Of a stretch of DNA of 57,039 nucleotides, positions 1 to 28,800 are shown piece after piece; the first letter of the stretch is position 1; each line of letters begins with the position of its first letter. A program made the translations under genes and the position numbers. The notes under the pieces are model-generated. The model did no database searches. It was not told the origin of the DNA and saw only the letters and a program-made list of their open reading frames with translations. The DNA is from a virus, in IMG/VR virus record IMGVR_UViG_3300007960_000027, positions 1 to 57,039 of that record; one strand, written 5' to 3'.

Positions 1-129
1 CGCGGCGTCACCAGTTTCCACAGCAGCACAGGGCACGAGGTCGGACAGCGCGCAGCGCGTGGCAGATGTTATACGCCACGTATAACACGTTCGGCCGCGG
101 CATCACCAGTTCCCACAGCAGCACAGGGC
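1..129. repeat. Pair of 34-bp direct repeats (1-34 and 96-129)
   Basis: Positions 1-34 and 96-129 match at 32 of 34 bases (differences at 7/102 and 17/112). They are 95 bp apart start to start, and the first copy of the 19-bp palindrome lies between them. The first unit starts at base 1 of the window, so the repeat may continue to the left. Confidence 0.8.
68..86. promoter_or_regulatory. 19-bp palindrome, copy 1 (centre CCA)
   Basis: Reads GTTATACG-CCA-CGTATAAC, with perfect 8-bp arms. It lies between the two 34-bp direct repeats and far from any gene start. Confidence 0.75.
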
Positions 130-339
130 GCTCTACAAGCTAGGCGCGAAGCCGGGTGAAAAATCTACAACTTGTGGGGGGTGCAAAGATTACGCTCAGA
201 GCGTTGCGTCCAACACTACGTGTTGTAGCGAAAGCTACGTGTAGCGTAACCCGAATTGAAATTTTGTCAACCCCCTCCCTCACGAGTTGTAACAATTCTA
301 CCCAGAGATTGTTCCACAAATAATCCACAACGTGGATGC

Positions 340-358
340 GTTATACGGCCCGTATAAC
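340..358. promoter_or_regulatory. 19-bp palindrome, copy 2 (centre GCC)
   Basis: Reads GTTATACG-GCC-CGTATAAC. It sits inside the iteron-rich region between TGTTCCA copies at 310 and 374. Confidence 0.75.
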
Positions 359-618
359 ATTGATTTTACGTAATGTTCCAGTCTACAACCATAGATCATT
401 TGTTCCAATTGTTCCAGTAGCCTAAAAAGAGTGGAACAATATAACCCGTTGATATTAAAGGGAAAAACGGGTATTGTTCCAATGTTCCACAAATTCGAGA
501 AATTGGTAAAAGGTTTGCCGGTTTTCGACTGACGGAATGCACCGCACCTTCGCCGACCCCCCAAAAAGCGTTTCCCCCCTAATAAAGAAAATTTAGGGAA
601 CAATTGGAACATTGGAAC

Positions 619-672
619 ATTATACCTCTACTACTACTACTAACTATAAATTTATATATATATATCAGACAC
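619..672. other. AT-rich tract, possible DNA unwinding element
   Basis: A run of CTA triplets followed by a long TA-alternating stretch, flanked by the heptamer pairs at 605/613 and 724/733. It stands out from the GC-rich surroundings. A role in strand opening is inferred only from composition and position. Confidence 0.4.
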
Positions 673-840
673 TTACACTTCCACCCCTGCGGGCTTGTAT
701 TGTTCCTATTCAAGAATTGGAATTGGAACAATTGGAACATTACGTAATATCAATGACTTAGCATTTTCGGTCCCGATCTCCCATGCAGACCGTGCCTCCA
801 GCTGCGCCCACACGTCCCTCACTGCCTACCCATGCCAGTC

Positions 841-859
841 GTTATACGCCCCGTATAAC
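841..859. promoter_or_regulatory. 19-bp palindrome, copy 3 (centre CCC)
   Basis: Reads GTTATACG-CCC-CGTATAAC, perfect arms, in the non-coding leader. Confidence 0.75.
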
Positions 860-909
860 AGCTACCAATACTTACCAGAACTTCACATGAGATTCTCAAC
901 TGAGACATA

Positions 910-938
910 TTGACTCAAACCGTGTTATAACGTACTAT
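910..938 (+). promoter_or_regulatory. Weak sigma70-like promoter candidate
   Basis: TTGACT at 910-915, a 17-bp spacer, then TACTAT at 933-938 (four of six consensus bases). An imperfect palindrome, ACTATAC-TAC-GTATAGT-like, covers 934-950. It is upstream of the whole + strand gene block, which makes an early promoter plausible, but the -10 match is weak. Confidence 0.25.
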
Positions 939-1031
939 ACTACGTATAGTTTGTTTGTTCCCGGGTCTTGTTGACCCACGCTCTTTGACATCGTGATTGG
1001 CTGCGCCTGATGCAGCCCGGCCTAGCTAGGT

Positions 1032-1050
1032 GTTATACGCCCCGTATAAC
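1032..1050. promoter_or_regulatory. 19-bp palindrome, copy 4 (centre CCC)
   Basis: Reads GTTATACG-CCC-CGTATAAC, identical to copies 3, 9 and 12. Confidence 0.75.
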
Positions 1051-1121
1051 GCCGATGATGCAGAACCAACCGGCCATTGCCTGTGACGCGCGGCTACGAA
1101 AACACCGCAGCGTGGGCCGCT

Positions 1122-1140
1122 GTTATACGCCCTGTATAAC
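1122..1140. promoter_or_regulatory. 19-bp palindrome, copy 5 (one arm mismatch)
   Basis: Reads GTTATACG-CCC-TGTATAAC. The single change (C to T) would still allow a G-U pair if the element acts as RNA. It starts 90 bp after copy 4. Confidence 0.75.
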
Positions 1141-1254
1141 AGCGTGCAGAAATCAAGAACCAGCAAGCCACTGTATTGGCATCAAGGGAGACGGGAGTTC
1201 CACCCTACAAAACTCGAAGCCCCACGCAGCTATCACACGCGACGGTACGTTGGT

Positions 1255-1273
1255 CCGACGGTATATCCGTCGG
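1255..1273. other. Stem-loop 1, 7-bp perfect stem
   Basis: CCGACGG (1255-1261), loop TATAT, CCGTCGG (1267-1273). First of three hairpins before the first + strand gene that share ATCCG at the start of the right arm. No T-run follows, so it is not a typical terminator. Confidence 0.6.
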
Positions 1274-1353
1274 GCTATGCCACTTCATACCTAGCCCAGC
1301 CTGCACCCGAGAATGGTGCGGAAGCTGCCGCCGGTTGGTTCGACAAAACACAT

Positions 1354-1373
1354 ACGTCAGCATCCGCTGACGT
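1354..1373. other. Stem-loop 2, 8-bp perfect stem
   Basis: ACGTCAGC (1354-1361), loop ATCC, GCTGACGT (1366-1373). Second hairpin of the trio; the loop again gives ATCCG. Confidence 0.6.
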
Positions 1374-1389
1374 GGGCGACAACAGCTAG

Positions 1390-1411
1390 GACACGCGGGC
1401 ATCCGCGTGTC
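1390..1411. other. Stem-loop 3, 9-bp perfect stem
   Basis: GACACGCGG (1390-1398), loop GCAT, CCGCGTGTC (1403-1411). Third hairpin of the trio, 16 bp after stem-loop 2. Confidence 0.6.
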
Positions 1412-1423
1412 TCATGGTGCAGT

Positions 1424-1460
1424 CGCGCCACCGCATGGCCCGAGGGCCATCGCGCCACCG
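1424..1460. other. Stem-loop 4 flanked by a 10-bp direct repeat
   Basis: ATGGCC (1435-1440), loop CGAG, GGCCAT (1445-1450). CGCGCCACCG occurs directly at 1424-1433 and 1451-1460 on either side. It ends at the AAAAAAGGAG Shine-Dalgarno tract of the first gene, so the fold could affect translation start. Confidence 0.5.
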
Positions 1461-1482
1461 AAAAAAGGAGATACAGACACAG

Positions 1483-1641
1483 ATGCACCAGCGATACAGA
1501 TCAACCACGGTGGAGGAGTTCAAAAGCCTCCTTCAGGCAGGGGCAATTCGCCCCGCGTCTCTGGAAGATGTCCACGGGACGCACCACAGCCGGGGGCTGT
1601 ACCGGCACCCCAACACGGGGCAATGGTACGTGGAAGTGTAA
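1483..1641 (+). CDS. Hypothetical small protein, 52 aa
   Basis: First likely + strand gene. The start at 1483 is preferred over an upstream ATG at 1414 because AAAAAAGGAG ends 12 bases before it. The product begins MHQRYRSTTVEEF and has a short helix-like segment (FKSLLQAGAIR) followed by a His/Gly/Tyr-rich C-terminus ending in GQWYVEV. I do not recognise the family. It stands between the hairpin cluster and palindrome copy 6. Confidence 0.55.
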   Translation: MHQRYRSTTVEEFKSLLQAGAIRPASLEDVHGTHHSRGLYRHPNTGQWYVEV

Positions 1642-1664
1642 CCGAAACCATCGCAACACGCTCC

Positions 1665-1683
1665 GTTATACGGGGCATATAAC
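1665..1683. promoter_or_regulatory. 19-bp palindrome, copy 6 (right arm CATATAAC)
   Basis: Reads GTTATACG-GGG-CATATAAC. It ends 13 bases before the ATG at 1697 and directly abuts the AAGGAG ribosome site. The G-to-A change in the right arm is shared with copy 8. Confidence 0.75.
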
Positions 1684-1696
1684 AAGGAGACTGAAC

Positions 1697-2179
1697 ATGC
1701 TTAGTACAACAACACAGAACCAGATCGACCAAGAATGGAACCGCAAGGCAGAAGCCTTCGTCACGCTGGCTGACCAGCTGCCCAGCTTGCAGTCTATCAA
1801 GGAAGCCTTTGCGTGGGAGGACAAGCACCCTGTCCACCCGACGACCGACGTGCGGAACGACGCGTTCCGCAACGCCATGAATGCAATCGGGCACAAGGCC
1901 CTGCCGTTCATGGATGCCAAGTATACCTACGTCAGCGACTTTGCGTGGGACGCCGCTGCCTGTGCCGACATGGAGAAGGGGGACACGCTGTTCCTCCTTA
2001 TCCACGAGTGCGGCACGCGGTTGTTCACGCCGATAACGCAGGAGCCTGACCACGTTCAGCGCAAGCTGGAGGAGGTCATCGAACACGTCGATGTGTGCAG
2101 CACCCGCAAGGCTGTACTGCGCGTGGTGCGTGAGCACTTTGACACCTTCACGGTGTCGGTCGTTTACAACCGCATCTGA
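1697..2179 (+). CDS. Hypothetical protein, 160 aa, shares a segment with the MoxR-like ATPase
   Basis: The start at 1697 follows AAGGAG with good spacing; a longer in-frame extension upstream runs through non-coding DNA and the palindrome. Residues about 20-35 (AFVTLADQLPSLQSIK) are nearly identical to residues 261-276 of the AAA+ ATPase encoded at 3887-4975, and the DNA under them matches at 49 of 50 bases. The rest is a mixed alpha/beta protein with a Cys/Asp-rich middle (AACADMEKGDTLFLLIHECG). Function unknown. A link to the ATPase, such as binding the same partner, is a guess from the shared segment. Confidence 0.8.
   Translation: MLSTTTQNQIDQEWNRKAEAFVTLADQLPSLQSIKEAFAWEDKHPVHPTTDVRNDAFRNAMNAIGHKALPFMDAKYTYVSDFAWDAAACADMEKGDTLFLLIHECGTRLFTPITQEPDHVQRKLEEVIEHVDVCSTRKAVLRVVREHFDTFTVSVVYNRI
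1754..1803. repeat. 50-bp direct repeat, copy A
   Basis: Matches 4667-4716 at 49 of 50 bases, in the same reading frame in two otherwise unrelated genes. The single difference turns Lys into Thr. This points to recent copying or recombination between the two genes. Confidence 0.85.
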
Positions 2180-2195
2180 TCGAAACCAGCGCCCC

Positions 2196-2214
2196 GTTAT
2201 ACGGGGCGTATAAC
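2196..2214. promoter_or_regulatory. 19-bp palindrome, copy 7 (centre GGG)
   Basis: Reads GTTATACG-GGG-CGTATAAC and lies 19 bases before the ATG at 2234. An upstream GCCCC (2191-2195) can pair with GGGGC around the left arm, giving an alternative hairpin. Confidence 0.75.
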
Positions 2215-2233
2215 ATGAGAAAGGAGACCAGCA

Positions 2234-2473
2234 ATGGCTGGAGAACGTATGACGCGTTACTTTTTGTTCGTGTGCACGCACTACTACCCCCGCGGCGGGA
2301 TGGACGACTGCGAAGGCGTGTTCGACACGCTTGAGGCAGCCAAGGCTGCCGCAGTTGCCGCTGACGAACGCTACGTAGACGTCAGCATTGCCGAAATCGG
2401 CGAGAATGTGGTCGAGCACTGGATGCAGGAAGATGGCTGGGTCAGCAAGCCATTCGTGCGGGAGCAGGAGTAA
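2234..2473 (+). CDS. Hypothetical protein, 79 aa
   Basis: AAAGGAG lies before the ATG at 2234. The internal ATG at 2249 is an alternative start, because the first codons themselves contain GGAG at proper spacing. The protein is acidic with an alanine-rich helix (LEAAKAAAVAADERY) and a likely small alpha/beta fold. Its first codons (MAGERMT) are nearly the same as in the next gene (MAGELMT). No family recognised. Confidence 0.75.
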   Translation: MAGERMTRYFLFVCTHYYPRGGMDDCEGVFDTLEAAKAAAVAADERYVDVSIAEIGENVVEHWMQEDGWVSKPFVREQE

Positions 2474-2477
2474 CACC

Positions 2478-2654
2478 ATGGCTGGAGAACTTATGACCTT
2501 CGCAGCACTCCCACAGGGTGCGAAATTTTTCTTCAACGGCAACTGCTGCATCAAGCGCAGCAGCGCCACGGCCGAACTCGTTGACTACAAGCGTACCTTT
2601 TACTTCGGGAAGAAGGACGTGGTCACTGTCGGCTGGCCGGGAGATGACGAATGA
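2478..2654 (+). CDS. Hypothetical small protein, 58 aa
   Basis: Starts five bases after the previous stop, with GGAGCAGGAG just upstream; the internal ATG at 2493 is an equally possible start. The body resembles a small beta-rich type common in phages: LPQGAKFFFNG, then a basic segment (CCIKRSSATAE), then YFGKKDVVTV. Role unknown. It overlaps the next gene by 4 bases (ATGA), which suggests coupled translation. Confidence 0.7.
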   Translation: MAGELMTFAALPQGAKFFFNGNCCIKRSSATAELVDYKRTFYFGKKDVVTVGWPGDDE

Positions 2655-2857
2655 CACCACACTGTATAACGTGTGGTGACGAGTACCCTCACGCGCGCCG
2701 CGCGTTGGGGTACCAGACCTGCCTCGCCTGTGGCGAAGCGGCCGCGGCAACTGTCCGCGCTGGGTGGTGCGTTGCACCCGTGGCGCACAAACAGGGTGCC
2801 ACACTCGTGACCAACAAGGCCGATCTCAAAGGCCTCAACAAGTACAGCGCCGACTAA
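2651..2857 (+). CDS. Small zinc-ribbon protein, 68 aa
   Basis: Two CxxC pairs are seen: Cys5-x2-Cys8 and Cys24-x2-Cys27, with HARRALGYQTCLACGE between and around them. This is a zinc-ribbon arrangement found in small phage proteins. The C-terminus (WCVAPVAHKQGATLVTNKADLKGLNKY) matches the style of that family. It likely binds zinc; DNA or protein binding is inferred. The first codons form a perfect 8-bp hairpin (2655-2678). Confidence 0.75.
   Translation: MTPHCITCGDEYPHARRALGYQTCLACGEAAAATVRAGWCVAPVAHKQGATLVTNKADLKGLNKYSAD
2655..2678. other. Hairpin over the start of the zinc-ribbon gene
   Basis: CACCACAC (2655-2662), loop TGTATAAC, GTGTGGTG (2671-2678). The loop equals the right arm of palindrome copy 5. 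It covers codons 2-9 of the gene beginning at 2651 and could dampen its translation. Confidence 0.5.
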
Positions 2858-2878
2858 CGGCGCTGCAACCAACGCCCC

Positions 2879-2897
2879 GTTATACGGGGCATATAAC
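2879..2897. promoter_or_regulatory. 19-bp palindrome, copy 8 (right arm CATATAAC)
   Basis: Reads GTTATACG-GGG-CATATAAC, 17 bases before the ATG at 2915, followed by AGGAG. The upstream GCCCC (2874-2878) and the central GGGGC allow an alternative hairpin. Confidence 0.75.
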
Positions 2898-2914
2898 ATC
2901 TCAGGAGAGCTATC

Positions 2915-3814
2915 ATGACTTTTACTTTCGATAACGCACCGGCACCGCAGGGTGCCACTCTTCAGTCCTCGACCATGCTGGTCGAACTGAGTATCTCGGT
3001 CTGGACTGCGCGCAAGCTGGACAAGCGCGCGTCCCGTGAATGTACGGACCGGGCGAATGCCGACAAGGGTATGGCCAACGTCCACAAGAAGCTGCTTGCC
3101 TGTGACGAGCTGACCGCCATCCAGAAGTTCGCGGCAAACGCGCGCACCTCGACGCACTATGCCATGACGCTGCCGTGGTCCGACAGCGGGCTGCGTATGC
3201 TGCCGACGTCGAATTATTTCGACTATCACAAGGCCATGACTGGCCTCCAGACCGAGTTCGATCGGCTGGTGCAGAAGTTCCTCGCCCGGTACGAGTGGCT
3301 CATCAACGAGACGCAGATCAAGCTGGGCGACATGTATAACCCGGCCGAGTACCCGTCGCTTGACAGGATGCAGGCCAAGTTCGGCTTTCGCCTCAACTAC
3401 ATCCCACTGCCGGAGGCAGGGGACTTCCGCGTGGATATTGGTAACCAGCAGGCCGAGGAGTTGCGGGATCAGTACGCCTCGTTTTACGAAGCGCAGCTGA
3501 CCCGGGCGATGGGCAACCTGTGGTCCCGTACATACAAGACGCTGACCCACATGTCCGAGCGGCTGGACTACGCTGACCACGAACAGAAGAAGGTGTTCCA
3601 TGACACGTTGGTGTCCAACGTGCTGGACCTGATCGACATGATGGAGACCATGAACATCACCAACGATCCGAACATGCAGCTGCAAAGCCGCCGCCTCAAG
3701 ATGGCGATGCAGGGTATCTCACCGAACGCGTTGCGTGAGGACGAGGGCCTGCGCCGTGACACCAAGCGTGCGGTGGACGAGGCCCTCAAGGCCCTGCCGT
3801 CGCTCGACTTCTAA
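2915..3814 (+). CDS. DUF3150-like protein, 299 aa
   Basis: Strong AGGAG upstream. The N-terminal pattern (MLVELSISVWTARKLDKRAS), the middle (TLPWSDSGLRMLPTSNYFDY), the segment FGFRLNYIPLPEAGDFRVD and a helical C-terminal half resemble what I know of DUF3150 proteins of phages and plasmids. These usually sit next to a MoxR-like ATPase and a VWA protein, as here. Biochemical role unknown. It is probably cytosolic: there is no signal peptide or membrane segment. Family assignment is from memory of sequence patterns, not a search. Confidence 0.7.
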   Translation: MTFTFDNAPAPQGATLQSSTMLVELSISVWTARKLDKRASRECTDRANADKGMANVHKKLLACDELTAIQKFAANARTSTHYAMTLPWSDSGLRMLPTSNYFDYHKAMTGLQTEFDRLVQKFLARYEWLINETQIKLGDMYNPAEYPSLDRMQAKFGFRLNYIPLPEAGDFRVDIGNQQAEELRDQYASFYEAQLTRAMGNLWSRTYKTLTHMSERLDYADHEQKKVFHDTLVSNVLDLIDMMETMNITNDPNMQLQSRRLKMAMQGISPNALREDEGLRRDTKRAVDEALKALPSLDF

Positions 3815-3837
3815 TACAATACGTCAACCAGCGGGGC

Positions 3838-3856
3838 GTTATACGCCCCGTATAAC
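3838..3856. promoter_or_regulatory. 19-bp palindrome, copy 9 (centre CCC)
   Basis: Reads GTTATACG-CCC-CGTATAAC, 30 bases before the ATPase start. GGGGC at 3833-3837 can pair with the GCCCC that spans the centre, an alternative to the palindrome hairpin. Confidence 0.75.
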
Positions 3857-3886
3857 AAACCAAATCAAACCAAACGGAGAACTACC

Positions 3887-4975
3887 ATGACTAATTCTAT
3901 GTATTACCTCGGCCTCGACCAGACCGCAAATCTCATCAAGGCCATTGGCCACAAGCGCACCGTGCTGGCGCAGGGTCACATGGGTACCGGCAAGTCCTCG
4001 CTGCTCAAGATGCTGGCCGAGATGCTGCCGACGCACACCCCCGTGTACTTCGACTGTACGACCAAGGACTTGGGTGACCTCATGTTGCCACGCATCGCCG
4101 AGGTGGATGCAGAGACACCGTATGTGTCGTATGCTCCGAACGAGGAGTTGGGTATCCACCACAACACCCCCGTGATCGTCATGCTTGACGAGTACGGCAA
4201 GGCTAACCCCGCTGTGAAGCAGGGCCTGACCGCCTTCATGTTGGAACGTCGGCTGGGTAACAACGCGTTGCACCCTGACAGCATCGTGTTCTGTACCACG
4301 AACCTCGGGGCCGAGGGTGTTGGTGACCTGCTTGTTGCACACCAGCGCAACCGCATCATCCCTGTCACGGTGCGGAAACCCAGCAACGTGGACTGGATCG
4401 AATGGGGCATCAACAACGGGATCGACCACAGCCTGTTGGGCTGGTGCCGTGATAACCCGCAGCTGTTCGCTGACTTCACCGAGATCAAAGACCCTGACGA
4501 GAACCCCTACGTCTTCCACCCACGTGCGCAGCGTGCTGCCTTCGTCACTCCTCGTTCGCTCGAATGCGCGTCTGACATCCTCAAGACGCGTGAGTTTCTT
4601 GACGACCAGACGGTGGTGGCCGGCCTGATCGGTGCCATCGGTGATCGTGCGGCGATGGACCTGATGGCCTTCGTCAAGCTGGCTGACCAGCTGCCCAGCT
4701 TGCAGTCTATCAAGGACGACCCGAAGAACGCTACCGTGCCGACCAGCGCCGCAGCTGTGTGTATGGTGGTGTATCGTACCATGGCGGCCCTCGAACGTGA
4801 CTGGCTCGACGCGTGGATGGACTACATGGTGCGGCTGCCCAAGGAGGCGCAGGGTATGTTCGCCAACGGCGTCCGCACCCCGAAGTATTCCAAGCAGTCC
4901 ATGGTGATGACCAACACCAAGTTCACCAACTGGGCGATGCAGAACAGCTATCTCTACGCAGCTGACATCAAGTGA
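3887..4975 (+). CDS. MoxR-like AAA+ ATPase, 362 aa
   Basis: Walker A GHMGTGKS at residues 30-37 and Walker B VIVMLDE ending at residue 102, followed by a sensor-like CTTN at 136-139 (IVFCTTNLG), give a complete AAA+ core in the first 220 residues. Length and order fit MoxR-type ATPases, which work with VWA proteins as chaperone-like remodelling machines. A DUF3150-like gene precedes it and a VWA gene follows 456 bases later. Residues 261-276 share near-identical DNA with the 160-aa protein at 1697-2179. Start chosen by GGAG at 3876-3879. The substrate is unknown. Confidence 0.85.
   Translation: MTNSMYYLGLDQTANLIKAIGHKRTVLAQGHMGTGKSSLLKMLAEMLPTHTPVYFDCTTKDLGDLMLPRIAEVDAETPYVSYAPNEELGIHHNTPVIVMLDEYGKANPAVKQGLTAFMLERRLGNNALHPDSIVFCTTNLGAEGVGDLLVAHQRNRIIPVTVRKPSNVDWIEWGINNGIDHSLLGWCRDNPQLFADFTEIKDPDENPYVFHPRAQRAAFVTPRSLECASDILKTREFLDDQTVVAGLIGAIGDRAAMDLMAFVKLADQLPSLQSIKDDPKNATVPTSAAAVCMVVYRTMAALERDWLDAWMDYMVRLPKEAQGMFANGVRTPKYSKQSMVMTNTKFTNWAMQNSYLYAADIK
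4667..4716. repeat. 50-bp direct repeat, copy B
   Basis: Partner of 1754-1803 (49 of 50 bases), in frame inside the ATPase C-terminal region. Confidence 0.85.
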
Positions 4976-4981
4976 GGACAC

Positions 4982-5137
4982 ATGTCGAACGATGATCTGA
5001 AAACGACCCAGCTGATACTGGACCTCAAGGAGATGCTCCGCGTCTACGTAGACGGGAAGTCTCACAACGAAACTCGTGGCCAAGCTTTGGCCACGATACG
5101 CGAAGCAAATGAATGGCTATATGGAGAGAAGAAATGA
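4982..5137 (+). CDS. Hypothetical small protein, 51 aa
   Basis: ATG six bases after the ATPase stop, with GAGG close before it. The product starts MSNDDLKTTQLILDLKEML and is highly charged and helical, ending EWLYGEKK. The stop overlaps the next start (ATGA), so the two are probably translationally coupled. It fits exactly between its neighbours and keeps their codon style. Function unknown; it may be an accessory subunit of the MoxR/VWA set. Confidence 0.65.
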   Translation: MSNDDLKTTQLILDLKEMLRVYVDGKSHNETRGQALATIREANEWLYGEKK

Positions 5138-5415
5138 CGAAGTACAAGCGCAAAGAGGGCAAGCGAAACACGCGGTGGACCGACGAGGACCTCGACCTGT
5201 TGCGCACACTGGCTGCGCAGGGTGTGTCTAACTGGGACATCAGCAAGCGTCTCGACCGCTCGCCCGGTTCAGTCAGTGCGCAGCTGTACCTGATGCGTAA
5301 GCAGGACGAGGCTGACCGGTTCGTCGATGCCGTGATGGAGGACTATCACGAGGTGGAGGTCACGCCGAAACCGTCGCTGTGGCGGCGCATCATGAACATT
5401 ATACGACGCGTATAA
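5134..5415 (+). CDS. Myb/SANT-like helix-turn-helix protein, 93 aa
   Basis: The start at 5134 is preferred because of GGAGAG upstream and the overlap with the previous stop. Residues about 13-55 (RWTDEDLDLLRTLAAQG.. then NWDISKRLDRSPGSVSAQL) look like a Myb/SANT or GcrA-type DNA-binding helix-turn-helix, with a basic C-terminus. The last codons (Ile-Ile-Arg-Arg-Val-stop) are provided by palindrome copy 10. A DNA-binding protein inside the repeat-controlled region is a natural candidate for the factor that reads the palindrome, but this is inference. Confidence 0.7.
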   Translation: MTKYKRKEGKRNTRWTDEDLDLLRTLAAQGVSNWDISKRLDRSPGSVSAQLYLMRKQDEADRFVDAVMEDYHEVEVTPKPSLWRRIMNIIRRV

Positions 5416-5416
5416 C
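5398..5416. promoter_or_regulatory. 19-bp palindrome, copy 10 (ATTATACG-ACG-CGTATAAC)
   Basis: It differs in the first base and centre. It forms the end of the upstream gene, including its TAA stop (5413-5415), and lies 15 bases before the ATG at 5432, followed by AGGAG. Confidence 0.75.
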
Positions 5417-5431
5417 AGACAGGAGAACAAC

Positions 5432-6646
5432 ATGTTTATGGGAAAACTGACACCCGAGCAACGGGTGCAAAAAGCCGTGATCGACATCATGGCCAAGGAT
5501 CGCTACGCCGCACTGGCTGGCATCCTGATGATCGGCGAGAAGCGGGTGGAGACTGACCCCGCCAAGTGTCCGACAGCATACACCGACGGTAAGAACGTGG
5601 TGTTCGGTGCCGAGTTCATGGATGGCATGACCGACGCAGAGTTGCGGTTCCTCGCTATCCACGAGGAGAAGCACAAGATGTATCGCCACCTGACAACGTG
5701 GGAGTGGATGTGGAAGGAGGACCAGCAGCTTGCCAACCAAGCGTGCGACCACGTCATCAACATTGAGACAGTGGACGAGAACCCCGACGGCTTCGCCACC
5801 ATGACAGGCAAGCTGGCCGGGGGGTGCTGCGACTTCAAGTACCGTGGGTGGGATGCCGCGCAAGTATTCCACGACCTCAAGCGCAAGCGTGACGAGCAGG
5901 GCGGTGGCAGTGGCAGTGGCGACGGTGACTACGACGGCAGCTTCGACCAGCATGGCTGGGAAGAAGCGCAGGACATGACCGCCGAGGAGAAGCGCGAATT
6001 GTCCCGTGCCGTGGACGAGGCCATACGTCAGGGTGTCTTGCTTGCTGGCAAGGCCGGGTCCGGTGGCGACCGCAGCTTCGAGGAACTGTTGACCCCGCAG
6101 GTCAACTGGCGTGACGCGCTGCGTGAGTTTGTACAGAACACATGCGCTGGGGCTGACTACTCAACGTGGCGCAAGCCCAACCGTCGGTACATCGGGATGA
6201 ACATCTACATGCCCTCCGGTGTCAGCGAGACAGTGGGCGAGATGGCCGTGCTGATCGACACGTCAGGTTCTACCTACGCACCGGGTGTGCTGCCCGCCTT
6301 CATGTCCGAGGCCAAGGCCATAGCCGAGACTGTCCGACCGGAGCGGGTGCACATCATTTACTGGGACACGGAGGTGTGTCAGGCTGAGGTGTACGAGCAG
6401 GACGAGTTGGACAAGATGATCTCCAGCACGCAGCCCAAGGGCGGTGGTGGCACCGACATCACCTGCGCCATCGACTACATGGCCGAACATAACATCAAGC
6501 CGCAAGCGTCCATCGTACTGACCGATGGGTATCTGTTCGGCGGCTGGGGGTCGTGGTCCCACCCTGTGCTGTGGTGCGTGATCGACAACAAGAACGCCAA
6601 GCCCGACACGGGCAAGGTCGTGCACATTCGTGCGAGTGACATGTGA
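5432..6646 (+). CDS. VWA-domain protein with N-terminal HExxH region, 404 aa
   Basis: The N-terminal half carries a metallopeptidase-like HEEKH (His77, Glu78, His81). The C-terminal half has a VWA fold with MIDAS motif DTSGS (276-280), a Thr-Asp at 341-342 and TDG at 364-366. A Gly/Ser/Asp-rich linker lies at about 156-170. This layout matches DUF2201-type VWA proteins that pair with MoxR ATPases. It likely binds a divalent metal and a client protein or the ATPase. Whether the HExxH is catalytic cannot be told. AGGAG precedes the start. Confidence 0.82.
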   Translation: MFMGKLTPEQRVQKAVIDIMAKDRYAALAGILMIGEKRVETDPAKCPTAYTDGKNVVFGAEFMDGMTDAELRFLAIHEEKHKMYRHLTTWEWMWKEDQQLANQACDHVINIETVDENPDGFATMTGKLAGGCCDFKYRGWDAAQVFHDLKRKRDEQGGGSGSGDGDYDGSFDQHGWEEAQDMTAEEKRELSRAVDEAIRQGVLLAGKAGSGGDRSFEELLTPQVNWRDALREFVQNTCAGADYSTWRKPNRRYIGMNIYMPSGVSETVGEMAVLIDTSGSTYAPGVLPAFMSEAKAIAETVRPERVHIIYWDTEVCQAEVYEQDELDKMISSTQPKGGGGTDITCAIDYMAEHNIKPQASIVLTDGYLFGGWGSWSHPVLWCVIDNKNAKPDTGKVVHIRASDM

Positions 6647-6661
6647 TACCAACCACGCCCC

Positions 6662-6680
6662 GTTATACGGGGCGTATAAC
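6662..6680. promoter_or_regulatory. 19-bp palindrome, copy 11 (centre GGG)
   Basis: Reads GTTATACG-GGG-CGTATAAC, 15 bases before the ATG at 6696, followed by AAGGAG. GCCCC at 6657-6661 allows the alternative hairpin. Confidence 0.75.
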
Positions 6681-6695
6681 ACAAGGAGATGAGCA

Positions 6696-7727
6696 ATGGC
6701 TCGTTACTACACTTCGATCAACAGCTTCGCCGAGGCCGAAGCGTTCTATAACAAAATCGTCCCTTTGCGTGGCGCGAAGAACAAGGACAAAGACATCCGC
6801 CCGCTTGGCGATCGACGTCGCAAGTGGGAACGCATCGTCAAGGTAAGCAACAACTGCTACGCCCTGACTAGCGGCTGGCATCCGGGCGACCCGGATTACT
6901 GGATGCGTGATAGCAAGGTTGATGGTGAGCCTCCTATCAGCTGGATGGCCAAGTATTCGCCCATCGTGTGGCGTAGGCATAAGGATGGAACCGAGACCGT
7001 CACCCTGCGTAACGGTACAGGACCCGGGTACCATACCAGCGTGTATGAGTTCCTGCGGCGTCACCTACCGCGATACATGAACTTTCTGCAAACCCGTGCC
7101 GGACACCAGCGCATCCACGTGTATGGCACTAGCTACTACTTGGCGAAGGGTCGCACCATACCGAAGCAATACGTTGCTCGCGCGTTGAAGTACGACTCGG
7201 GGCGTGAGTGGTACCAGACCACTGACGACAAGGCGTCTCTTACCTTCAAGGTGTTGGACGGACGCTATGAACTTGTTGGCGAGGCGCTGACGGTACCGAA
7301 GCCGCCCAAGAAGCGCGTAGATAAGGCCCGCAAGGCAGCCCTCAAGCCGCACATCGACGCGTTCCGTGACTGGGCTATAGCTATCCTGCCCATGATGCCC
7401 ACTGACTGGCAGTCCGAGTTCGAGGTGCTGAACCAAGCCCGCACCGTACCTATCGGAGACTTCCGTCTTGGGTACTCTGTTGGCTGGGCCTTCAATGCCA
7501 ACAACTCAGAACTAGCAGAGCAGATCATCCAGCACGACCAGCACGCGCTTCGCGTTTTGTTGGCGCTTCACATGCGTGCGACGGTTCGCTCTGCGCTTGA
7601 GGATAAGCACGGGAGAGACACGAACACCACGCACCTGCACCTGAATGACGGTTTCCAGACCGCCTATAACCGCTGGGCCAACAAGACCCTCGGACTTATC
7701 AATACAGTAAAAGGAGATGCGGAATGA
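6696..7727 (+). CDS. Hypothetical phage protein, 343 aa
   Basis: Good AAGGAG eight bases before the ATG. A soluble, basic alpha/beta protein: N-terminal helix (SFAEAEAFYNKIV), a basic patch (RRRKWERIVKV), an aromatic middle, a Lys/Pro-rich hinge near residue 210 (PKPPKKRVDKARKAALKP) and a helical C-terminus. I do not recognise a family or catalytic motif. It overlaps the next gene by 4 bases and is probably co-translated with it. Confidence 0.75.
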   Translation: MARYYTSINSFAEAEAFYNKIVPLRGAKNKDKDIRPLGDRRRKWERIVKVSNNCYALTSGWHPGDPDYWMRDSKVDGEPPISWMAKYSPIVWRRHKDGTETVTLRNGTGPGYHTSVYEFLRRHLPRYMNFLQTRAGHQRIHVYGTSYYLAKGRTIPKQYVARALKYDSGREWYQTTDDKASLTFKVLDGRYELVGEALTVPKPPKKRVDKARKAALKPHIDAFRDWAIAILPMMPTDWQSEFEVLNQARTVPIGDFRLGYSVGWAFNANNSELAEQIIQHDQHALRVLLALHMRATVRSALEDKHGRDTNTTHLHLNDGFQTAYNRWANKTLGLINTVKGDAE

Positions 7728-8587
7728 CCGCAGAATGGATGGAAGTAGACGACCTCAAGCCCGTGCATGAGGACACGCACCCAAACCTGTGGGCCTTTAT
7801 GCGTGACGTTCAGGCCAAGATACCCGGCGTACAGTTCGGACGTCGCGGCGGTTCGTCGGCGAGCCGTGCCGTGTTTGCGTACCTGCCCGGAGACCACGTG
7901 ACTATAGGCCGTATTGGCTACGGCGATTTTAAACGGGGGGGTAGGGGTATCAACGAATACATCGTGGAGTCCGACTGTATTAAGAATTGCAAGTACAGCA
8001 GCTCCAGTACGCAGCACCACATGGCGATGACTATCCACCGTGACAAAGCGGTGAAGAATGCACAGAAATTTCTGCGTCCAATGTCTACCGCTGTAACTGC
8101 GATGCGTTTATTTGCTGGGGCAAACGCGCTTGCGCAGGATAGAGTATCCAAACTCCGGGACGCAGTTGCAAAGGTCGAGTCGAAGGTGTTTACGACGTCC
8201 TTGTCTAGATACGGTTCAGGTGCCGTACGCATACGACTGCTGGCTGAAATGCAACGTCTTGTAGACGAAGACCACACGTTCATTGATCCATCGTTTCGTG
8301 ATGACCTTGTCGCTATGCTTACTGCACGTGCCGAGTATGAAATGTCTAGCGAAGGCGTGGAGTTTACGTTCGTGGGCGTCAAAGACACACCGCTCGGTCG
8401 ACAGATAGAAGTAGTGGACTTGGATAGATACGGCGCGTGCAACGACGACGTACGTATCTTCACCGAAGCTGATGTGCCTACTGACCTTGCAGGTAAAGTG
8501 GCCGTACTGTCCATGCTTCAGCCTCGCGAATACGTCGATGGTGTAGGTTGTCGTCGTACCAATCGGGCATTCTATGTCATACGGTGA
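7724..8587 (+). CDS. Hypothetical protein, 287 aa
   Basis: Starts in the ATGA overlap with the previous gene; GGAG lies just upstream. The middle is helical and Ala-rich (about 105-150). The last 45 residues (DVPTDLAGKVAVLSML, then VDGVGCRRTNRAFYV) are related to the C-terminus of the next, smaller protein. Codon use is less GC-biased than in the genes before it. Family unknown. Confidence 0.72.
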   Translation: MTAEWMEVDDLKPVHEDTHPNLWAFMRDVQAKIPGVQFGRRGGSSASRAVFAYLPGDHVTIGRIGYGDFKRGGRGINEYIVESDCIKNCKYSSSSTQHHMAMTIHRDKAVKNAQKFLRPMSTAVTAMRLFAGANALAQDRVSKLRDAVAKVESKVFTTSLSRYGSGAVRIRLLAEMQRLVDEDHTFIDPSFRDDLVAMLTARAEYEMSSEGVEFTFVGVKDTPLGRQIEVVDLDRYGACNDDVRIFTEADVPTDLAGKVAVLSMLQPREYVDGVGCRRTNRAFYVIR

Positions 8588-8819
8588 GCTGTCGTACCGT
8601 GTGGAGTATCTGCCTGACAATGAACACGTCAATGTGCTATGTTTTACACCTAAACATCTTGCATTGATACCGGATGGCAAGTATCGTATAGATGATCTTC
8701 CGGACGTGTTGCGAAGCAAGCTGGCGGTTCTGGCCATAATGGAGGCCCCACCTCCGCCTGTTGATGTGGCGGGCGTGGGCCAGCGCGTAGGCGAGCGTGC
8801 GTTCTGGGTGTACATCTAA
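8574..8819 (+). CDS. Hypothetical protein, 81 aa, paralogue of the preceding C-terminus
   Basis: Overlaps the previous gene by 14 bases. The segment DDLPDVLRSKLAVLAIM followed by VDVAGVGQRVGERAFWVYI lines up with the end of the 287-aa protein (same order, similar spacing), so it seems to be a stand-alone copy of that C-terminal domain. Function unknown. Confidence 0.68.
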   Translation: MSYGELSYRVEYLPDNEHVNVLCFTPKHLALIPDGKYRIDDLPDVLRSKLAVLAIMEAPPPPVDVAGVGQRVGERAFWVYI

Positions 8820-8834
8820 GTCTGTACGGGGCGT

Positions 8835-8853
8835 GTTATACGCCCCGTATAAC
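8835..8853. promoter_or_regulatory. 19-bp palindrome, copy 12 (centre CCC)
   Basis: Reads GTTATACG-CCC-CGTATAAC and is the last copy in the window, 25 bases before the nuclease gene. ACGGGGCG (8826-8833) can pair with CGCCCCGT (8841-8848), an 8-bp alternative stem. Confidence 0.75.
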
Positions 8854-11689: not shown

Positions 11690-12070
11690 ATGAACATCAA
11701 CGACCTTACGCTGGGCCAGATCAAGGCCCTTACCGAAATGTTTGGCGGCGCATCGCAGCAGCCTTCCAGCCCGCACGTCGGCAAGAAGTGCATCATCCGC
11801 ACATATGCGTCGGGCGTGCATTACGGTACGCTGGACGCGCAGCACGGTCGGCAGGTGGAACTTTCGCAGGCGCGGCGGCTCTGGCGGTTTGACGCCGCCC
11901 CGCACGGCATCTCGCTGTCAGAGGTTGCCATGCACGGCGGCACGGGCGGTCGGCACCGGTACTGCGAGACGGTGCCTTCGATCACGATCCTCGACGCGCT
12001 GGAGATCATCCCGTGTTCTGACACTGCGATTGCCGCGATTGAGGCAGCGCCTGTATCGCAGCCCTCGTGA
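11690..12070 (+). CDS. DUF6948-like protein, 126 aa
   Basis: AAGGAG lies upstream. MNINDLTLGQIKALTEMFGG, then GKKCIIRTYASGVHYGTL, ARRLWRF, and a C-terminal DALEIIPCSDTAIAAIE follow the order of a family I know as DUF6948 in phages and plasmids. Expected to be a small beta-sheet protein; function unknown. The stop overlaps the next ATG. Confidence 0.68.
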   Translation: MNINDLTLGQIKALTEMFGGASQQPSSPHVGKKCIIRTYASGVHYGTLDAQHGRQVELSQARRLWRFDAAPHGISLSEVAMHGGTGGRHRYCETVPSITILDALEIIPCSDTAIAAIEAAPVSQPS

Positions 12071-12345
12071 TGGCCTACTTTGCAGACCATGAGCGCCCCT
12101 GCCGGATTTCCGGCAGGGACACGGACCTCGGCGACGGCTTCGGCAACGGCTTAGGCTACGGCTGTGGCTCCGGCAACGGCTGTGGCATCGGCCACGGCTA
12201 TGGCTCCGGCAGCGGCTACGGCAGAGGCGACGGCTATGGCTCCGGCAGCGGCTACGGCAACGGCTACGGCGAAGGCGACGGCTACGGCAACGGCTACGGC
12301 GACGGCGACGGCTCCGGCAATGGCAACGGCAAAGGACAGGAGTAG
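12070..12345 (+). CDS. Gly-rich repeat protein A, 91 aa
   Basis: Begins MAYFADHERP, then about 65 residues of alternating Gly with Ser, Tyr, Asp or Asn. No fold is expected in the repeat. It is followed 5 bases later by a sister gene with the same first residues. The DNA is a near-perfect GGC-rich hexamer repeat. Function unknown; Gly/Tyr/Asn alternation is reminiscent of adhesive or condensate-forming low-complexity proteins, a speculation. Confidence 0.6.
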   Translation: MAYFADHERPCRISGRDTDLGDGFGNGLGYGCGSGNGCGIGHGYGSGSGYGRGDGYGSGSGYGNGYGEGDGYGNGYGDGDGSGNGNGKGQE

Positions 12346-12355
12346 ACCAGATGAC
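12322..12355. repeat. 34-bp repeated leader (second copy at 12603-12636)
   Basis: The stretch holding the end of one Gly-rich gene, the AGGAG site and the next ATGAC occurs twice, at 12322-12355 and 12603-12636, with two differences. It marks the duplication unit of the Gly-rich genes. Confidence 0.8.
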
Positions 12356-12620
12356 CTACTTTGCAGACCACGAAGAACCCGGCTCCGGCAACGGATCAGG
12401 CTCCGGCAACGGATCAGGCTCCGGCAAAGGCGAGGGCTACGGCAACGGCTCGGGCAACGGCTCGGGTTCGGGCCACGGCTCCGGCACCGGCTCCGGCATC
12501 GGCAGCAACTCCGGCCACGGGTTTGGCTCTGGCTACGGCGGGAGCAACGGTGACGGCTCCGGCCCCGGCGACGGTTTCGGCATCGGCACCGGCTCCGGCT
12601 ACGGCAACGGCAAAGGATAG
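12351..12620 (+). CDS. Gly-rich repeat protein B, 89 aa
   Basis: Begins MTYFADHEEP and continues with Gly-Ser/Asn/Tyr alternation, ending GYGNGKG. AGGAGTAGACCAG precedes it, a leader repeated before the next gene. Clearly a tandem duplicate of the gene before it: 21 of the first 24 coding bases match. Its final codons match those of copy A except that a CAG became TAG, which shortened the end. Confidence 0.6.
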   Translation: MTYFADHEEPGSGNGSGSGNGSGSGKGEGYGNGSGNGSGSGHGSGTGSGIGSNSGHGFGSGYGGSNGDGSGPGDGFGIGTGSGYGNGKG

Positions 12621-12631
12621 GAGTGGACCAG

Positions 12632-12835
12632 ATGACTAAACTCACAGCAGAACAGGCGGAAATCGTGGCGAAACTCGCTCAGAGCGTCCGCATGCACATG
12701 CACCGGGGCCTGACGATGCGTCAGGTCGAGGAGACCCTGATCATCGCGGAAGGCTGGCCGCTGGCCGCTGTGCGTGCTGCGGTGGAGCAGGTCAGGCGGG
12801 CTGACCCCAGCTATAACAGGTCCAGCGAACGATGA
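12632..12835 (+). CDS. Hypothetical small helical protein, 67 aa
   Basis: AGGAG with 8-base spacing supports the ATG at 12632. MTKLTAEQAEIVAKLAQSVR, then RGLTMRQVEETLIIAEGWPL and an Ala/Arg-rich helix suggest a small helix-turn-helix-like fold. Unknown function. Its 3' end overlaps a possible gene on the other strand. Confidence 0.65.
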   Translation: MTKLTAEQAEIVAKLAQSVRMHMHRGLTMRQVEETLIIAEGWPLAAVRAAVEQVRRADPSYNRSSER

Positions 12836-22809: not shown

Positions 22810-22843
22810 CCCGCAGGTGCCCCCCGCACCTGCGGGTTTTTTT
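22810..22843 (+). terminator. Rho-independent terminator of the + strand genes
   Basis: CCCGCAGGTGC (22810-22820), loop CCCCC, GCACCTGCGGG (22826-22836), then seven T (22837-22843). The T-run shares its last two bases with the stop codon of the opposite-strand gene. Confidence 0.9.
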
Positions 22844-25800
22844 AATTGAGGCCGAACTGCTCCCAGAACGTGGTCGGGCTGTCGTACTCCGCAGCCATCT
22901 GCCGGATCATGGGCAGGTTCCGGTTGTTGAAGATCATACCGTTGACCGCCCGCTGCGTTGTCTGTTCGAAGGTGCGCGCCGACCGCTTCAACGTGTCCCG
23001 AGTGATCGCCTGCTGCGGATGCCGCTTGTTGTACTCGCGGATTTCGGCCAAGACCTCCCGTATCCCAACTGCATCGTTGTTCCGCCGGGCAAGGTTCAGC
23101 TTCCGCATCAGCTTGGACTTCTTCTCCACAATGGCGGTGTCGATGTTTTTCAGCTGCGTGTTGGCTTCCAGCTGCCGGATGTAGTCCGCGGAGGAGAAAC
23201 CCAAAGCCTGCGCCATAATACTGTATGGTCCGAAGTCATCATAGATCACGTCACCGCGCAGGGTCTCTGCCCCGTTTTGTGCGAACCGGAAGGCACGCAC
23301 CACACTGCCGAGAGATACGGGAAGAGCAGCCTCTATGGCCCGGCGATATTCCCCTTCGGACAGCAACGCCGGAATACGCTCGCTGTACCTGATAAGCAGA
23401 CTCGCAATCGGTCCACCAGCGCCTTCGATGAGGTTCATGACCGCGCCTTGGCTGTCCGCACGAAGCGGTTCACGGTAGAAGGTGTTGGACAGACCGATAC
23501 GGCTCGACACCTCGACGCCGAAGAAATAGTTACCGATGCCCTTGAAGCCCAGTTCGCCAAGCGATGTGCGGACGATGGTGTCAAAGTCCTCTTCGTCGTC
23601 CTCAGTGAACAGCGTGTCGAACAACGATGCAAACGCCCCGTACATTGGCAGGCCGGATGCACCGGCCCAGAGACCAACGCTGCCGACGATACCACCGAAC
23701 TGGAAGCGTGCGACCTTCCGCATCATCAGGGCTTCATTGTACTCGGGCGTACCCTCGCCATACATCTCGGCCAGTTTGGCTTTGCTTGGGAACGACTTGT
23801 TCGCCACTGACAGCAGCAGATTGTACATGGCCAGCGGATACCGCCGGAACAGATAGAACGGCGCACCGATGTTGCCCTGCGCCAGCTTCGGCGCAGCGGC
23901 GGCAGAGATGCTGCCGTTGGTCATCTCGGTCATGTACGCGGCCTTGTTGGCTGCGGCCTGCTTCTCTTCTACGGTCAGATCGGTCGGCCGTCCGCGCTTG
24001 GCTTTCTCGGACTGCAGGCGCTGTACCTCAAGGTCGTAGGCAGCGATCAGCGTGGACTCCCGCACGCTGCGTTCGAGATGGTGGAACAGGAAGCCGGACG
24101 TGCGGTTCATCTTTTCCCACACACCCGTGCCGATGCTGCCTTCGATGTCCAGCGTGTCGTAGTTGATGGAGTTGTGGAGAAGCCCCCGAGCCCGTGCCTC
24201 TTCGCGCAGGTAGTAGTACCGGCTGTTCTCGTCCATGTCGTAGTTGTCGAGCGAATAGTCCACGAGGTTTGTCGTGACCTTCCGGGTTTCCGTCTCGCCG
24301 CGTTCGTTGATGAACTCGACCACGCGTTCCCGTCCGCTGCCGCCGTAGACACGCATGGCGTTGCCCAGTGCCTTAACGGTCTGACGCATCCCGTACTCCC
24401 CGCTGAGGTACGGTGCGATGATGGTCGGAATAGCGAAAAAGTTGAGAGTCGCCGAGGATATGTTGGCACCCAGTGTCAGGCCGAAACCCAGCGACGTGGC
24501 GAGTTTGGATATTCTAGACCGATCACGGTAGATAGCCCCGGCATAGTCCTGCATGGCTTCCAGATAGACCTGTGCCTTGACCTGCTCGTCAAGACCGAGG
24601 CGACCACTGTTGACCCCGTCTTCAAACTCCTGCGTCATCCGATTGACCGCGGCCCGTGCCTTGGAGCCATACTCCATGTCAGCAAGCTGACGCGACAGGC
24701 TGGCACTTTTCTGCAGCAGCAGGTTCGTCGTATCGGTGCGGCTGAGTTTCTGCGAGATAGGCGTCTTGTCACCAAGATAGCCTTTGATGTTCTCACGCCT
24801 GCGATATGAGTTGAGGATAGACCGCTCCGGCGTCATCTCCAAAGCCAGCTTCACGACCTCTGCGTGGGTGGCACTTGCGCGGGCCATCTCTGCGTCGAGT
24901 ACCGCCTTTGCAGCTGCCCGCGACTGATCCATGGTGCCGCCTTGGGACAATACGCGGGCCTGCTCGGCGTTGCTCGCCGCACGTGCTTGCCGCTCCATCA
25001 TGCGACCGATGTCCATGACGAACTTGCTTGGAGGGGTCTGATTGCCACCGAATAGGTCGTTAATCTTTACGTACGCCCGCACATCGGTGATCCCGAGGCC
25101 CGGCTCCTCCTGCTGGAGTCGCTGCAGCTCTTTATATGCAGCGGCCCGGTCGCCCTCGGTGAGGAACGACTGCTTCGCCAGTGTGGGCTGCTTGGTCTCC
25201 GGGTCATTGTAGAAGTACGCCAGCCAGAACCGACCCTGACGCTGCAGCGGCTGGTACGGCACAACGACTTGATCTGCGAGGATTTTCTCGTAGATGTCTT
25301 TGTACAACGTCTCGCTGAGTTTTTTCTGGAACGGCAGCATCTCGTCCAGTCGGGCTTTCAGCACGCGACCGGTCTCTTTGTGCATGTTCTCGAACAGGGC
25401 GACGACCTTGTTGTACGCCTTCTGCCCGTCCGGCCCAAGGGCTACCCACTGCTTACGCAGCTTGCGGTAGGCATCCAGCGTCTCCTGATCGAAATCCCGG
25501 TGCGCTCGGGCCTGCGTACGGCTGGCCGTTTTGCCTGCATCAGTATCCTGCTTGAGCCGCGCGTTGAGGTCCACAAGCGCCGAATCCCGTTCAGCCTTGG
25601 TGGGATAGGACATCAACTCGACCCCATCCATCTCACCCTTGGCGTTCAGCTTCTTGTAGACCAGCGTATAGCCCGTGTAGAAGTTTTCCTTGCGGCGGGG
25701 GTCGATCTGCAATTCGCTGGCGATGAGACGGACATCGTTGAACAGGTCGGTCTTGTCCTTGGGCACCAGCTTCATGATGTCGTCAACGGTCTGCCGCGCA

Positions 25801-28800
25801 CGCTGATTGAGACGGTGGATGGCCCCCGAGTGGCCCGTCAGGGCCTTGTAGAGATCATCGACGTTGCTGCGCCCCAGATACCTACCTGCAGGCTCCAGCA
25901 TGTTGACCAGTCCGACGAAGGCGTCCAACGCGAACCGCTTGAGGCCAGACCGAGACGTGCCACCTGCCGCCAAGAAGTTGTCGATCTTCTGTTGATCCAG
26001 CTTGGTGAAGTCCTTGACGCGGCCGGCAGGGCCGTTGAGGCGTGCCGCGGCCCGCAGCGGGATCAGGGAGTCTTCATACAGGTTGTTGTCGGCACGCACC
26101 TCGGGGGCTGCGTCGAAAATAGTCCGGACAAGGAAGTCCACCTCGTCGAACACGCTGTCTTTGCCTGCGCCTGCCTCCGGACCGACACTCATAGCGGTAT
26201 AGTCGCGTGCCGGTCGCCGTAGAATCCGTGTTCGCACGAAGTTTGCGACGTTGCGCCAGAACTGCGTGAACGCGGAAGCCTTCCGGTCGTTGGGGTACAA
26301 CTGTGCGAGCTTGGCTTGGAACTCTTGGTTCGACATCGCCTCCGCTGCGAACTCCAGCGTGTTCTCCAGCCCATAGTCCTGATCCAGCAACGGCTCGACC
26401 TGCTTGCGAAGGCTTTCGAGGCGTGCCCGCACCGGGTTGGTAGGGTCCATCAGTGCCTTGATTGTCGCTGCGTGGATCATCTCATGCAGCAGCGTGTGCG
26501 CGTTCATACCGGTTGCGGAGTTCAGGAATATGGCATCCTGAGTGTCTTCGGCATACCCGGGGCTGGCGGCAGCCACCTCGGCTTGCTGTGCTTCTGTACG
26601 CAGCAGATAGCCACCCGGATCAATTTCACCGGTCTTTTTGTTGCGGAGAAGGTTACGTACGGTGTCCCCGCTGGCTGTGGTATATACCTTGGTCTTGCCC
26701 ACGTAGGGGATCAGACCTGCGGCCAGCTGTGAGATATACGAGTCCGTGCTTGTATCTGCCAGCAGCTGAAGCGCACCGCGCAGGTCGCCTTTGTTCAAGG
26801 CACGCACGATGTCGGGATGGAACGGAGCCTGCAGGCCATAGACGATGCTGCGGCGCGGTGCACGCAAGAGTGCATCTTTAAACCCTTCGCCGATGGCGTC
26901 GAGTTCTTCGACCGTCAGTGTGTCTGGTGTGGTCCCTTCAAACGCTTCGGTCCCGCGCAAGGCGGCTTCGGCGTCGTAGTAGGATTTCAAGAATGCGGCT
27001 TCGTTCTTATCGCGCTCCCGGCGCGTCATCTGTTCTTGGTCGAGGGCGTTACCCAGTGCGTCTGCACGGGCTTCAGTGAACTCCGCGATCTGCTCGTCCA
27101 TGTAGGCGATGCTGTCGAAAGACAGGTTCTGCTCTACCCACTCACTGGCGGCGGTCGCAGCGTTACGTCCGGTGCCTTGCTCTATTGCGCTGAGAGGCGT
27201 GGTCTTGCTGCCACGACGTATCTTCGGCACATCGGGGTCAGTGATGTCGAATGCAATAGCGGCCAGCGCGTCACCGGGATCGGGATACTTGCTGAAGTAG
27301 GCGTATGCACCTCGGGCGGTCTTGTTCTTCGTCCCCTCAAGCCGCGATTTCGGCGTGTTCAGCAGGTCAAGCAGCGTGCGTTTGTCGCCCGCTGTTGACG
27401 GATCGACCGCCGCCTCTTGCGCCAGCAGACGTGTTTCGCGGTCAGTAAGCCGGTCCTGTTCCCGCTGAAGCGCCCGGGCTTCCGCTTCGGTTTCGGCGTC
27501 CTCTACCGGCTTCAGTCGCGCACGTTCGCGTGCAATAGTGGCGGATGCGCTGTCGGCGTCAGCCTCGCGAACCAGTTCCTCGGATGCGTTGGACCGGAAC
27601 CAACTACGGAGCTGCTGGCGCAGAGACATGTTGTCTGCGCTCTCCATCATATTGATCGCGTCTTGTGTGCCTTCAGCTTCGGCCTGCTGACGCCCTGCCT
27701 CACTGCGAAGATACGACGTCACGTTGTACAACTGCGCGCTGGTCCGGTTCAGCTGCCGCTGCAGCCGATCCTTCACGACGCTAGGCTTGACGCCTTCTTC
27801 CTTGGCACGTGCACTCACCGCACGGCGGGCCAGTGCGGCTTGCAGGTCTTTGATCTCCTGCTCCAGACGCGTCTTGGTGGTCATCTGCCGCGCGATGGGT
27901 TCGCGCTGTACCGCCGCTTGTCCAGCAAGCTGTCTTCCCTGCACCCCGGAGACCCCCGCAGGGATCAGCTGCCCCGTAGGTGTAATGGTCGCACCTTCCG
28001 GACGACGCAATGTCGGCTCCGGAACCACCGGACGCCGCAAGTTGGGTGCCATTTGTTCAGCTTCGAGCGTGGGAGCAGCGGGCGTGGGAGCAGCGGGCGT
28101 GGGAGCAGCGGGCGCGCGGGCTACAGGAGCCGCAGGCGTGGGAGCAGCGGGCGTGGGAGCAGCGGGCGTGGGAGCCGCAGGCGTGGGAGCCGCAGGCGTG
28201 GGAGCCGCAGGCGTGGGAGCCGCAGGCGTGGGAGCCGCAGGTGACGCCCCCTTATAGCCTACAGGTTCGAGTTCATACGCCATAAGGTCTTCGTCGGACT
28301 TTGATTTCGCAAAGTCCGCGGGGTACTCTTGTGTAGTCTTGTCAGTAAACACCACGGCGCTGCCGTCAGGAAGCCGAGTAATCTGCACCGGGATGTCGCC
28401 TTCGTCTTCGGTGGACACGACGTATTTTGTGCTAGTGCGGACAGGCGCGGCTTCGGGCGTGGGAGCAGCGGGCGTGGGAGCAGCGGGCGTGGGAGCAGCG
28501 GGCGTGGGAGCAGCGGGCGTGGGAGCAGCGGGCGTGGGAGCCGCAGGCGCTACTGCTCCGGGCTGTTGTCCTGTTCCTCCTGCAGATTCGCGAGGGTCTG
28601 GGCTAGGAACTCCCAGTGGTGTTCCTGCAGGTGTTGCAGCTCCGGGGGTATCTTCAGGGACACTTGGTCCCCGTCCGCGTTTACCCACGCGTCGTGTAGG
28701 ACTTGGAACGCCTTCTCGACGTCCTCCATCGTCAGGCTGACCATAGACTGCTCCTTCTGACGACGCTTGACTAGGCGTAGTGCTAGATTCCGGTGCAGGG

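Follow-up and report, generated by a model that had tools for sequence, protein, structure and literature searches.

What would a phage do with a MoxR-type AAA+ ATPase, a partner carrying a von Willebrand factor A (VWA) domain and a protein of the family DUF3150, all encoded side by side? The question is raised by positions 2915-6646 of the IMG/VR virus record IMGVR_UViG_3300007960_000027, whose whole 57,039-base stretch, hereafter the window, was analyzed and is the reference for all coordinates. The source virus is an uncultivated short-tailed, podovirus-like phage. We propose, with a probability of about 0.5, that this operon encodes an ATP-driven machine for protein remodelling or processing, directed at an early target in the host or in the replication/transcription apparatus; for the early, non-virion nature of the client, taken on its own, we see about even odds. 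A preliminary description of the window had drawn five open reading frames (ORFs) in this module, and all five were recovered in place:

2915..3814, plus strand: DUF3150 protein, 299 residues
3887..4975, plus strand: predicted MoxR/midasin-type AAA+ ATPase, 362 residues, homologue of N4 gp24
4982..5137, plus strand: protein of 51 residues, outside the conserved core
5134..5415, plus strand: Myb/helix-turn-helix (HTH)-like protein, 93 residues, outside the conserved core
5432..6646, plus strand: DUF2201_N metallopeptidase-like and DUF2201 VWA (metal-ion-dependent adhesion site, MIDAS) protein, 404 residues, homologue of N4 gp25

The three main genes form a conserved unit in a large IMG/VR clade. 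The preliminary description had claimed that a MoxR-type ATPase, its VWA partner and a DUF3150 protein are encoded together, which our family matches and the invariant HExxH and MIDAS residues described below uphold. Linkage of these families in other phages had been set beforehand as the refuting test, and it proved very strong. Among loci retrieved by the ATPase or by DUF3150, nearly all of adequate length have the three genes together. In a second set, retrieved with a DUF3150 profile, the order DUF3150-AAA-VWA was found in 33/33 new independent loci with 5 kb downstream; the order AAA-DUF3150-VWA occurs in one locus (L054) and in cyanophage MinM2. Across 11 reference phage records, the AAA and VWA genes are either both present (Rhizobium TM27A, Pseudomonas phi30-3, Klebsiella KpS8 and K64-1, Thermus phiFa, and FV3) or both missing (the other five), and N4, Axy11 and MinM2 likewise have both. 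DUF3150 is more restricted: neither the family nor the clade profile found it in N4 or Axy11, it was likewise missing from FV3, and it was not found in ten further phage records including K64-1 and phi30-3, a search that had no positive control of its own, although MinM2 was positive with the same profile elsewhere. The AAA/VWA pair itself has been described before in jumbo and N4-like phages; the third component, DUF3150, and the all-or-none survey of the pair are new as far as the literature searched shows. The two small ORFs are not part of this core. The preliminary description had included them in the module, and their positions are right; they were rejected as core members since they are missing from most relatives. 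The 51-residue protein was not seen in the loci compared outside the nearest relative, and HTH-like small ORFs reappear at the same place in part of the relatives.

The ATPase matches phrog_1297 (ATPase, E=1.7e-41), and generic AAA models of Pfam, including AAA_5, match it weakly, below threshold. In an alignment of 26 sequences that includes N4 gp24 and MinM2, the Walker A residues G33, G35 and K36, the Walker B residues D101 and E102, sensor-1 N139, and R156 and R223 are invariant. Midasin is its nearest solved relative by profile, with E=1.7e-28 summed over the repeated AAA domains and a best single-domain independent E-value of 1.5e-6, followed by AAA domains of the Hsp104/Clp type, which score level with NorQ, and more weakly by the MoxR-like protein 2r44 and CobS. 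Because midasin, NorQ, a MoxR-like protein and CobS are among these nearest solved relatives, the sequence places the ATPase in the MoxR/midasin-type (MoxR/dynein-related) clade. Midasin, NorQ and CobS are AAA proteins that act with a VWA/MIDAS domain or partner. Midasin (Rea1/MDN1), whose MIDAS domain is also among the fold matches of the VWA protein, is a single giant eukaryotic chain for ribosome assembly and has no metallopeptidase domain.

The VWA protein has Pfam matches to both DUF2201 families, with DUF2201_N at 75.4 bits (cut-off 23.2) and the VWA-like DUF2201 at 58.3 bits (cut-off 26.4), both well over their thresholds, and it matches phrog_1314 (E=7.8e-84). The N-terminal residues H77, E78, H81, H86, N102 and D106 and the MIDAS residues D276, S278, S280, T341 and D365 are invariant in 44 homologues, which include N4 gp25 and whose identity falls as low as 28%. 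Its AlphaFold model has a mean predicted local distance difference test score (pLDDT) of 77, about 90 in the N-terminal domain, and matches VWA folds including Ro60 besides midasin. The HExxH motif makes the N-terminal domain metallopeptidase-like and its peptidase activity putative; no solved metallopeptidase was among the best matches of this domain. Many public phage records call this DUF2201 metallopeptidase-VWA protein an 'HNH endonuclease' (e.g., NC_008720 gp25), as does PHROG 1314. We rejected this label, as no HNH family or fold appeared in Pfam, NCBIfam or the PDB fold matches listed, and the naming looks like a propagated mislabel.

The VWA protein also bears on whether the pair consists of auxiliary metabolic genes, namely a viral CobS/CobT that would aid host CobN in placing cobalt in the vitamin B12 corrin ring. 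Earlier papers have named phage AAA/VWA pairs CobS/CobT (PMC8651126; PMC11705849), cobaltochelatase CobS/CobT likewise combines AAA+ and VWA partners, and CobS appears, with a weaker score, among the PDB matches to the ATPase. However, the CobS and CobT family models were unmatched in Pfam and NCBIfam, midasin and NorQ outscore CobS, the VWA partner of the module has an additional metallopeptidase-like domain, and no cobalamin gene was recognized among the scanned window proteins. With the family models unmatched, the cobalamin role was rejected, and we regard it as very improbable.

The Pfam match of the DUF3150 protein is barely above threshold (PF11348, 25.8 versus a cut-off of 24.9 bits) and partial, covering 4-175 of 257 model positions; certain clade members and MinM2 fall under the cut-off, yet are linked by the clade profile. 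The alignment of 39 sequences contains 16 invariant columns. The AlphaFold2 model (pLDDT 81) is alpha-rich with two very long helices; it retrieved nothing better than E=0.3 in a PDB fold search, and most of its significant viral fold matches are to proteins that are DUF3150-like or unnamed. All three core genes are under purifying selection, with ratios of nonsynonymous to synonymous substitution rates (dN/dS) of 0.19 for DUF3150, 0.08 for AAA and 0.10 for VWA, DUF3150 thus being the faster one. At least 589 IMG/VR stretches encode DUF3150 of the present type. In the genome collection, the search returned only three contigs of metagenome-assembled genomes, which are probably phage. No mention of DUF3150 was found in the literature searched.

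The general picture of MoxR/VWA pairs as chaperones comes in part from what is known of the families. It also rests on published accounts of AAA and VWA pairs (PMC7159879, PMC7824862). By this model, the AAA+ protein of the module would form a hexameric ring, and the MIDAS domain, by likeness to other AAA-VWA pairs, would bind an acidic residue in the ring or the client. ATP hydrolysis would then pull a client protein or complex apart, the metallopeptidase-like domain may cut or grip it, and DUF3150 may serve as a clade-specific adaptor or client-choosing subunit. A more specific version, which we hold to be possible but doubtful, is a viral unfoldase-peptidase of three components: DUF3150, with no solved fold relative, would steer the MIDAS-metallopeptidase/AAA+ machine onto one particular host complex of the early phase, such as one of transcription or replication. 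If true, such a steered unfoldase-peptidase would represent a host-takeover mechanism of an undescribed kind.

The pair is widespread among phages. N4 gp24 and gp25 are homologous to the ATPase and the metallopeptidase-VWA protein, adjacent and in the same order, and lie outside the late block as in the module; unlike the module, N4 has no DUF3150, and identity is about 23-27%. For N4-like phages, both have been listed in a set of 14 core genes, without a known function (PMC4193335), and they are again described as core genes without function (PMC7650795); no N4 essentiality screens were found in the literature searched. The pair also turns up in phages of Rhizobium and Thermus and in rV5-like and jumbo phages, as a widespread, putative viral machine for protein remodelling. 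Group 2.2 jumbo phages encode a MoxR AAA+ protein paired with a protein in which a metallopeptidase domain at the N-terminus is joined to a vWA domain (Iyer et al. 2021, PMC7824862), the same architecture as in the module, and our profiles found such pairs in the large phages K64-1 and phi30-3, which differ from the module in that DUF3150 was not found. Cyanophages MinM2 and Pag-Yong1 have all three components clustered and a related capsid protein (76%) and portal, but with the order AAA-DUF3150-VWA, about 25% identity and annotation by family name only.

For the jumbo phages, Iyer et al. (2021, PMC7824862) proposed a role in virion assembly, by analogy with Acidianus two-tailed virus, whose tails require a MoxR-vWA pair. 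Applied to the window, this would make the module an assembly chaperone that also processes structural proteins by peptidolysis. The AAA and metallopeptidase-vWA architecture is identical to that of the jumbo-phage pair, and in K64-1 the pair stands next to structural genes. Nevertheless, the genes lie outside the late structural block in both the window and N4, and N4, rV5-like, Thermus and jumbo phages, which belong to other groups, have the pair. The capsid protein (64-66%), the portal and at least four further late proteins of the window have counterparts in HTVC023P and DSL-LC04, and our profiles found no AAA, VWA or DUF3150 in either of these phages; MinM2, with a 76% capsid, has the module. 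That this capsid and portal also occur in phages lacking the module argues against an obligatory assembly role; we rate the assembly chaperone as unlikely. This comparison, with the virion shared and the module missing, weighs against the sole published proposal for the architecture, and the question is now addressable in the E. coli phage N4.

An early remodelling machine agrees better with the position of the genes. The module lies within the first 9 kb, upstream of the plus-strand replication genes (polA, helicase and DUF927/primase), while the late genes (portal, major head protein, amidase and a polyvalent-type protein of 2,453 residues) are on the opposite, minus strand; this strand separation and the palindromes described below support early placement. 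With the genes in a palindrome-marked early region ahead of the replication genes, and with the module dispensed with in phages that share the virion, we consider a host protein or the phage's replication/transcription apparatus a likelier client than the virion. The preliminary description had named a host defence or replication complex as a possible target, which is conjectural. Several points pull the other way. Early timing is deduced from gene position alone, the adjacency to structural genes in K64-1 is what would be expected of an assembly factor, and the absence from HTVC023P and DSL-LC04 could reflect replacement by hosts or other genes. Additionally, the overall predicted template modelling score of the VWA protein model is low (0.51).

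Another candidate is a device for counter-defence or superinfection exclusion, in which a phage counterpart of the bacterial MoxR-vWA ternary conflict systems would use DUF3150 as its third component to choose the target. The combination of AAA, VWA and a distinct third component recalls those systems (PMC7159879), and the dN/dS of DUF3150 exceeds that of its partners. However, the third part is DUF3150, and no VMAP, iSTAND, FtsH or beta-propeller component was found in its stead, while the core status of the pair in N4-like phages (PMC4193335) suits a general rather than an accessory role. PADLOC returned no meaningful match, for which a defence system was rejected, and we consider the counter-defence device improbable.

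The preliminary description had assigned each main unit its own palindrome. This is true, but the palindromes extend beyond the module and mark early genes at large. They follow the pattern GTTATACG-NNN-CGTATAAC, and the copies at the module each stand 15-30 nt ahead of a start codon, that of DUF3150, AAA, VWA or the next gene:

2879..2897, plus strand: palindrome GTTATACGGGGCATATAAC, 17 nt 5' of the DUF3150 start, one mismatch to the pattern
3838..3856, plus strand: palindrome GTTATACGCCCCGTATAAC, 30 nt 5' of the AAA start
5398..5416, plus strand: palindrome ATTATACGACGCGTATAAC, 15 nt 5' of the VWA start, including the last bases of the Myb-like ORF, one mismatch
6662..6680, plus strand: palindrome before the next gene
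6696..7727: next gene, with its own palindrome upstream; the module ends before it

The window contains 12 copies, against 0.08 by chance, and all are in the first 9 kb (68-8853). Relatives carry palindromes with other stems (GTTAGTG, GTTAGGG, TGTAGTG, TTATGCG and others) at 3-13 copies per locus; the letters differ between phages, pairing is kept, and the downstream side is frequently A-rich. A phage's own palindrome lies within 60 nt upstream of the ATPase gene in 14 of 21 non-redundant loci (0.8 expected), of the VWA gene in 6/16 (0.6 expected) and of DUF3150 in 4/20 (0.8 expected), and shuffled loci gave no comparable repeated palindrome in 120 trials. The palindromes form a wider early regulatory set and fit a promoter or operator for a phage-encoded regulator; since they precede early genes in general, they inform on the timing of the module and not on its function. 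The 3-base loop made promoters for an N4-type RNA polymerase attractive, a candidate that we rejected: a PF00940 search, positive for the N4 control, found no T7/N4-type RNA polymerase in the window or in eight clade members, and a motif-B search gave chance-like matches only.

The palindrome design is clade-wide, with a stem of 7-8 bp, a loop of 2-5 bases and a position often 15-30 nt ahead of a start codon (loci L050, L027, L056, L100, L103, L113, L054, L066 and L064). A second repeated element, approximately ACCAGTTCTTAGAG..GCGT.GAGCC, lies just 3' of the palindromes in the early stretches of several relatives:

L050: 5051, 5172, 5287
L027: 6173, 6328
L103: 6280, 6389
L066: 5710, 5919
L113: 1141

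Membership of the source phage in Schitoviridae (N4-like) was rejected, as the PF00940 search for the marks of that family, a virion RNA polymerase and RNAP1/RNAP2, was negative in the window and in eight clade members. A DNA-level search among named phages gave zero relatives of the window. A tie between the module and the type of polA was likewise rejected, as KPP25 and Rollin have the same polymerase without the VWA protein. The giant minus-strand protein (22842-30203) looks like a polyvalent protein, its C-terminal part resembling antirestriction/polyvalent proteins of the DarB type, with an LPD39 domain slightly below cut-off. Mostly coding tandem repeats occur at 12064-12654, 28036-28594, 32928-33818 and 55959-57039, with periods of 12/18, 15, 66/297 and 81 bases.

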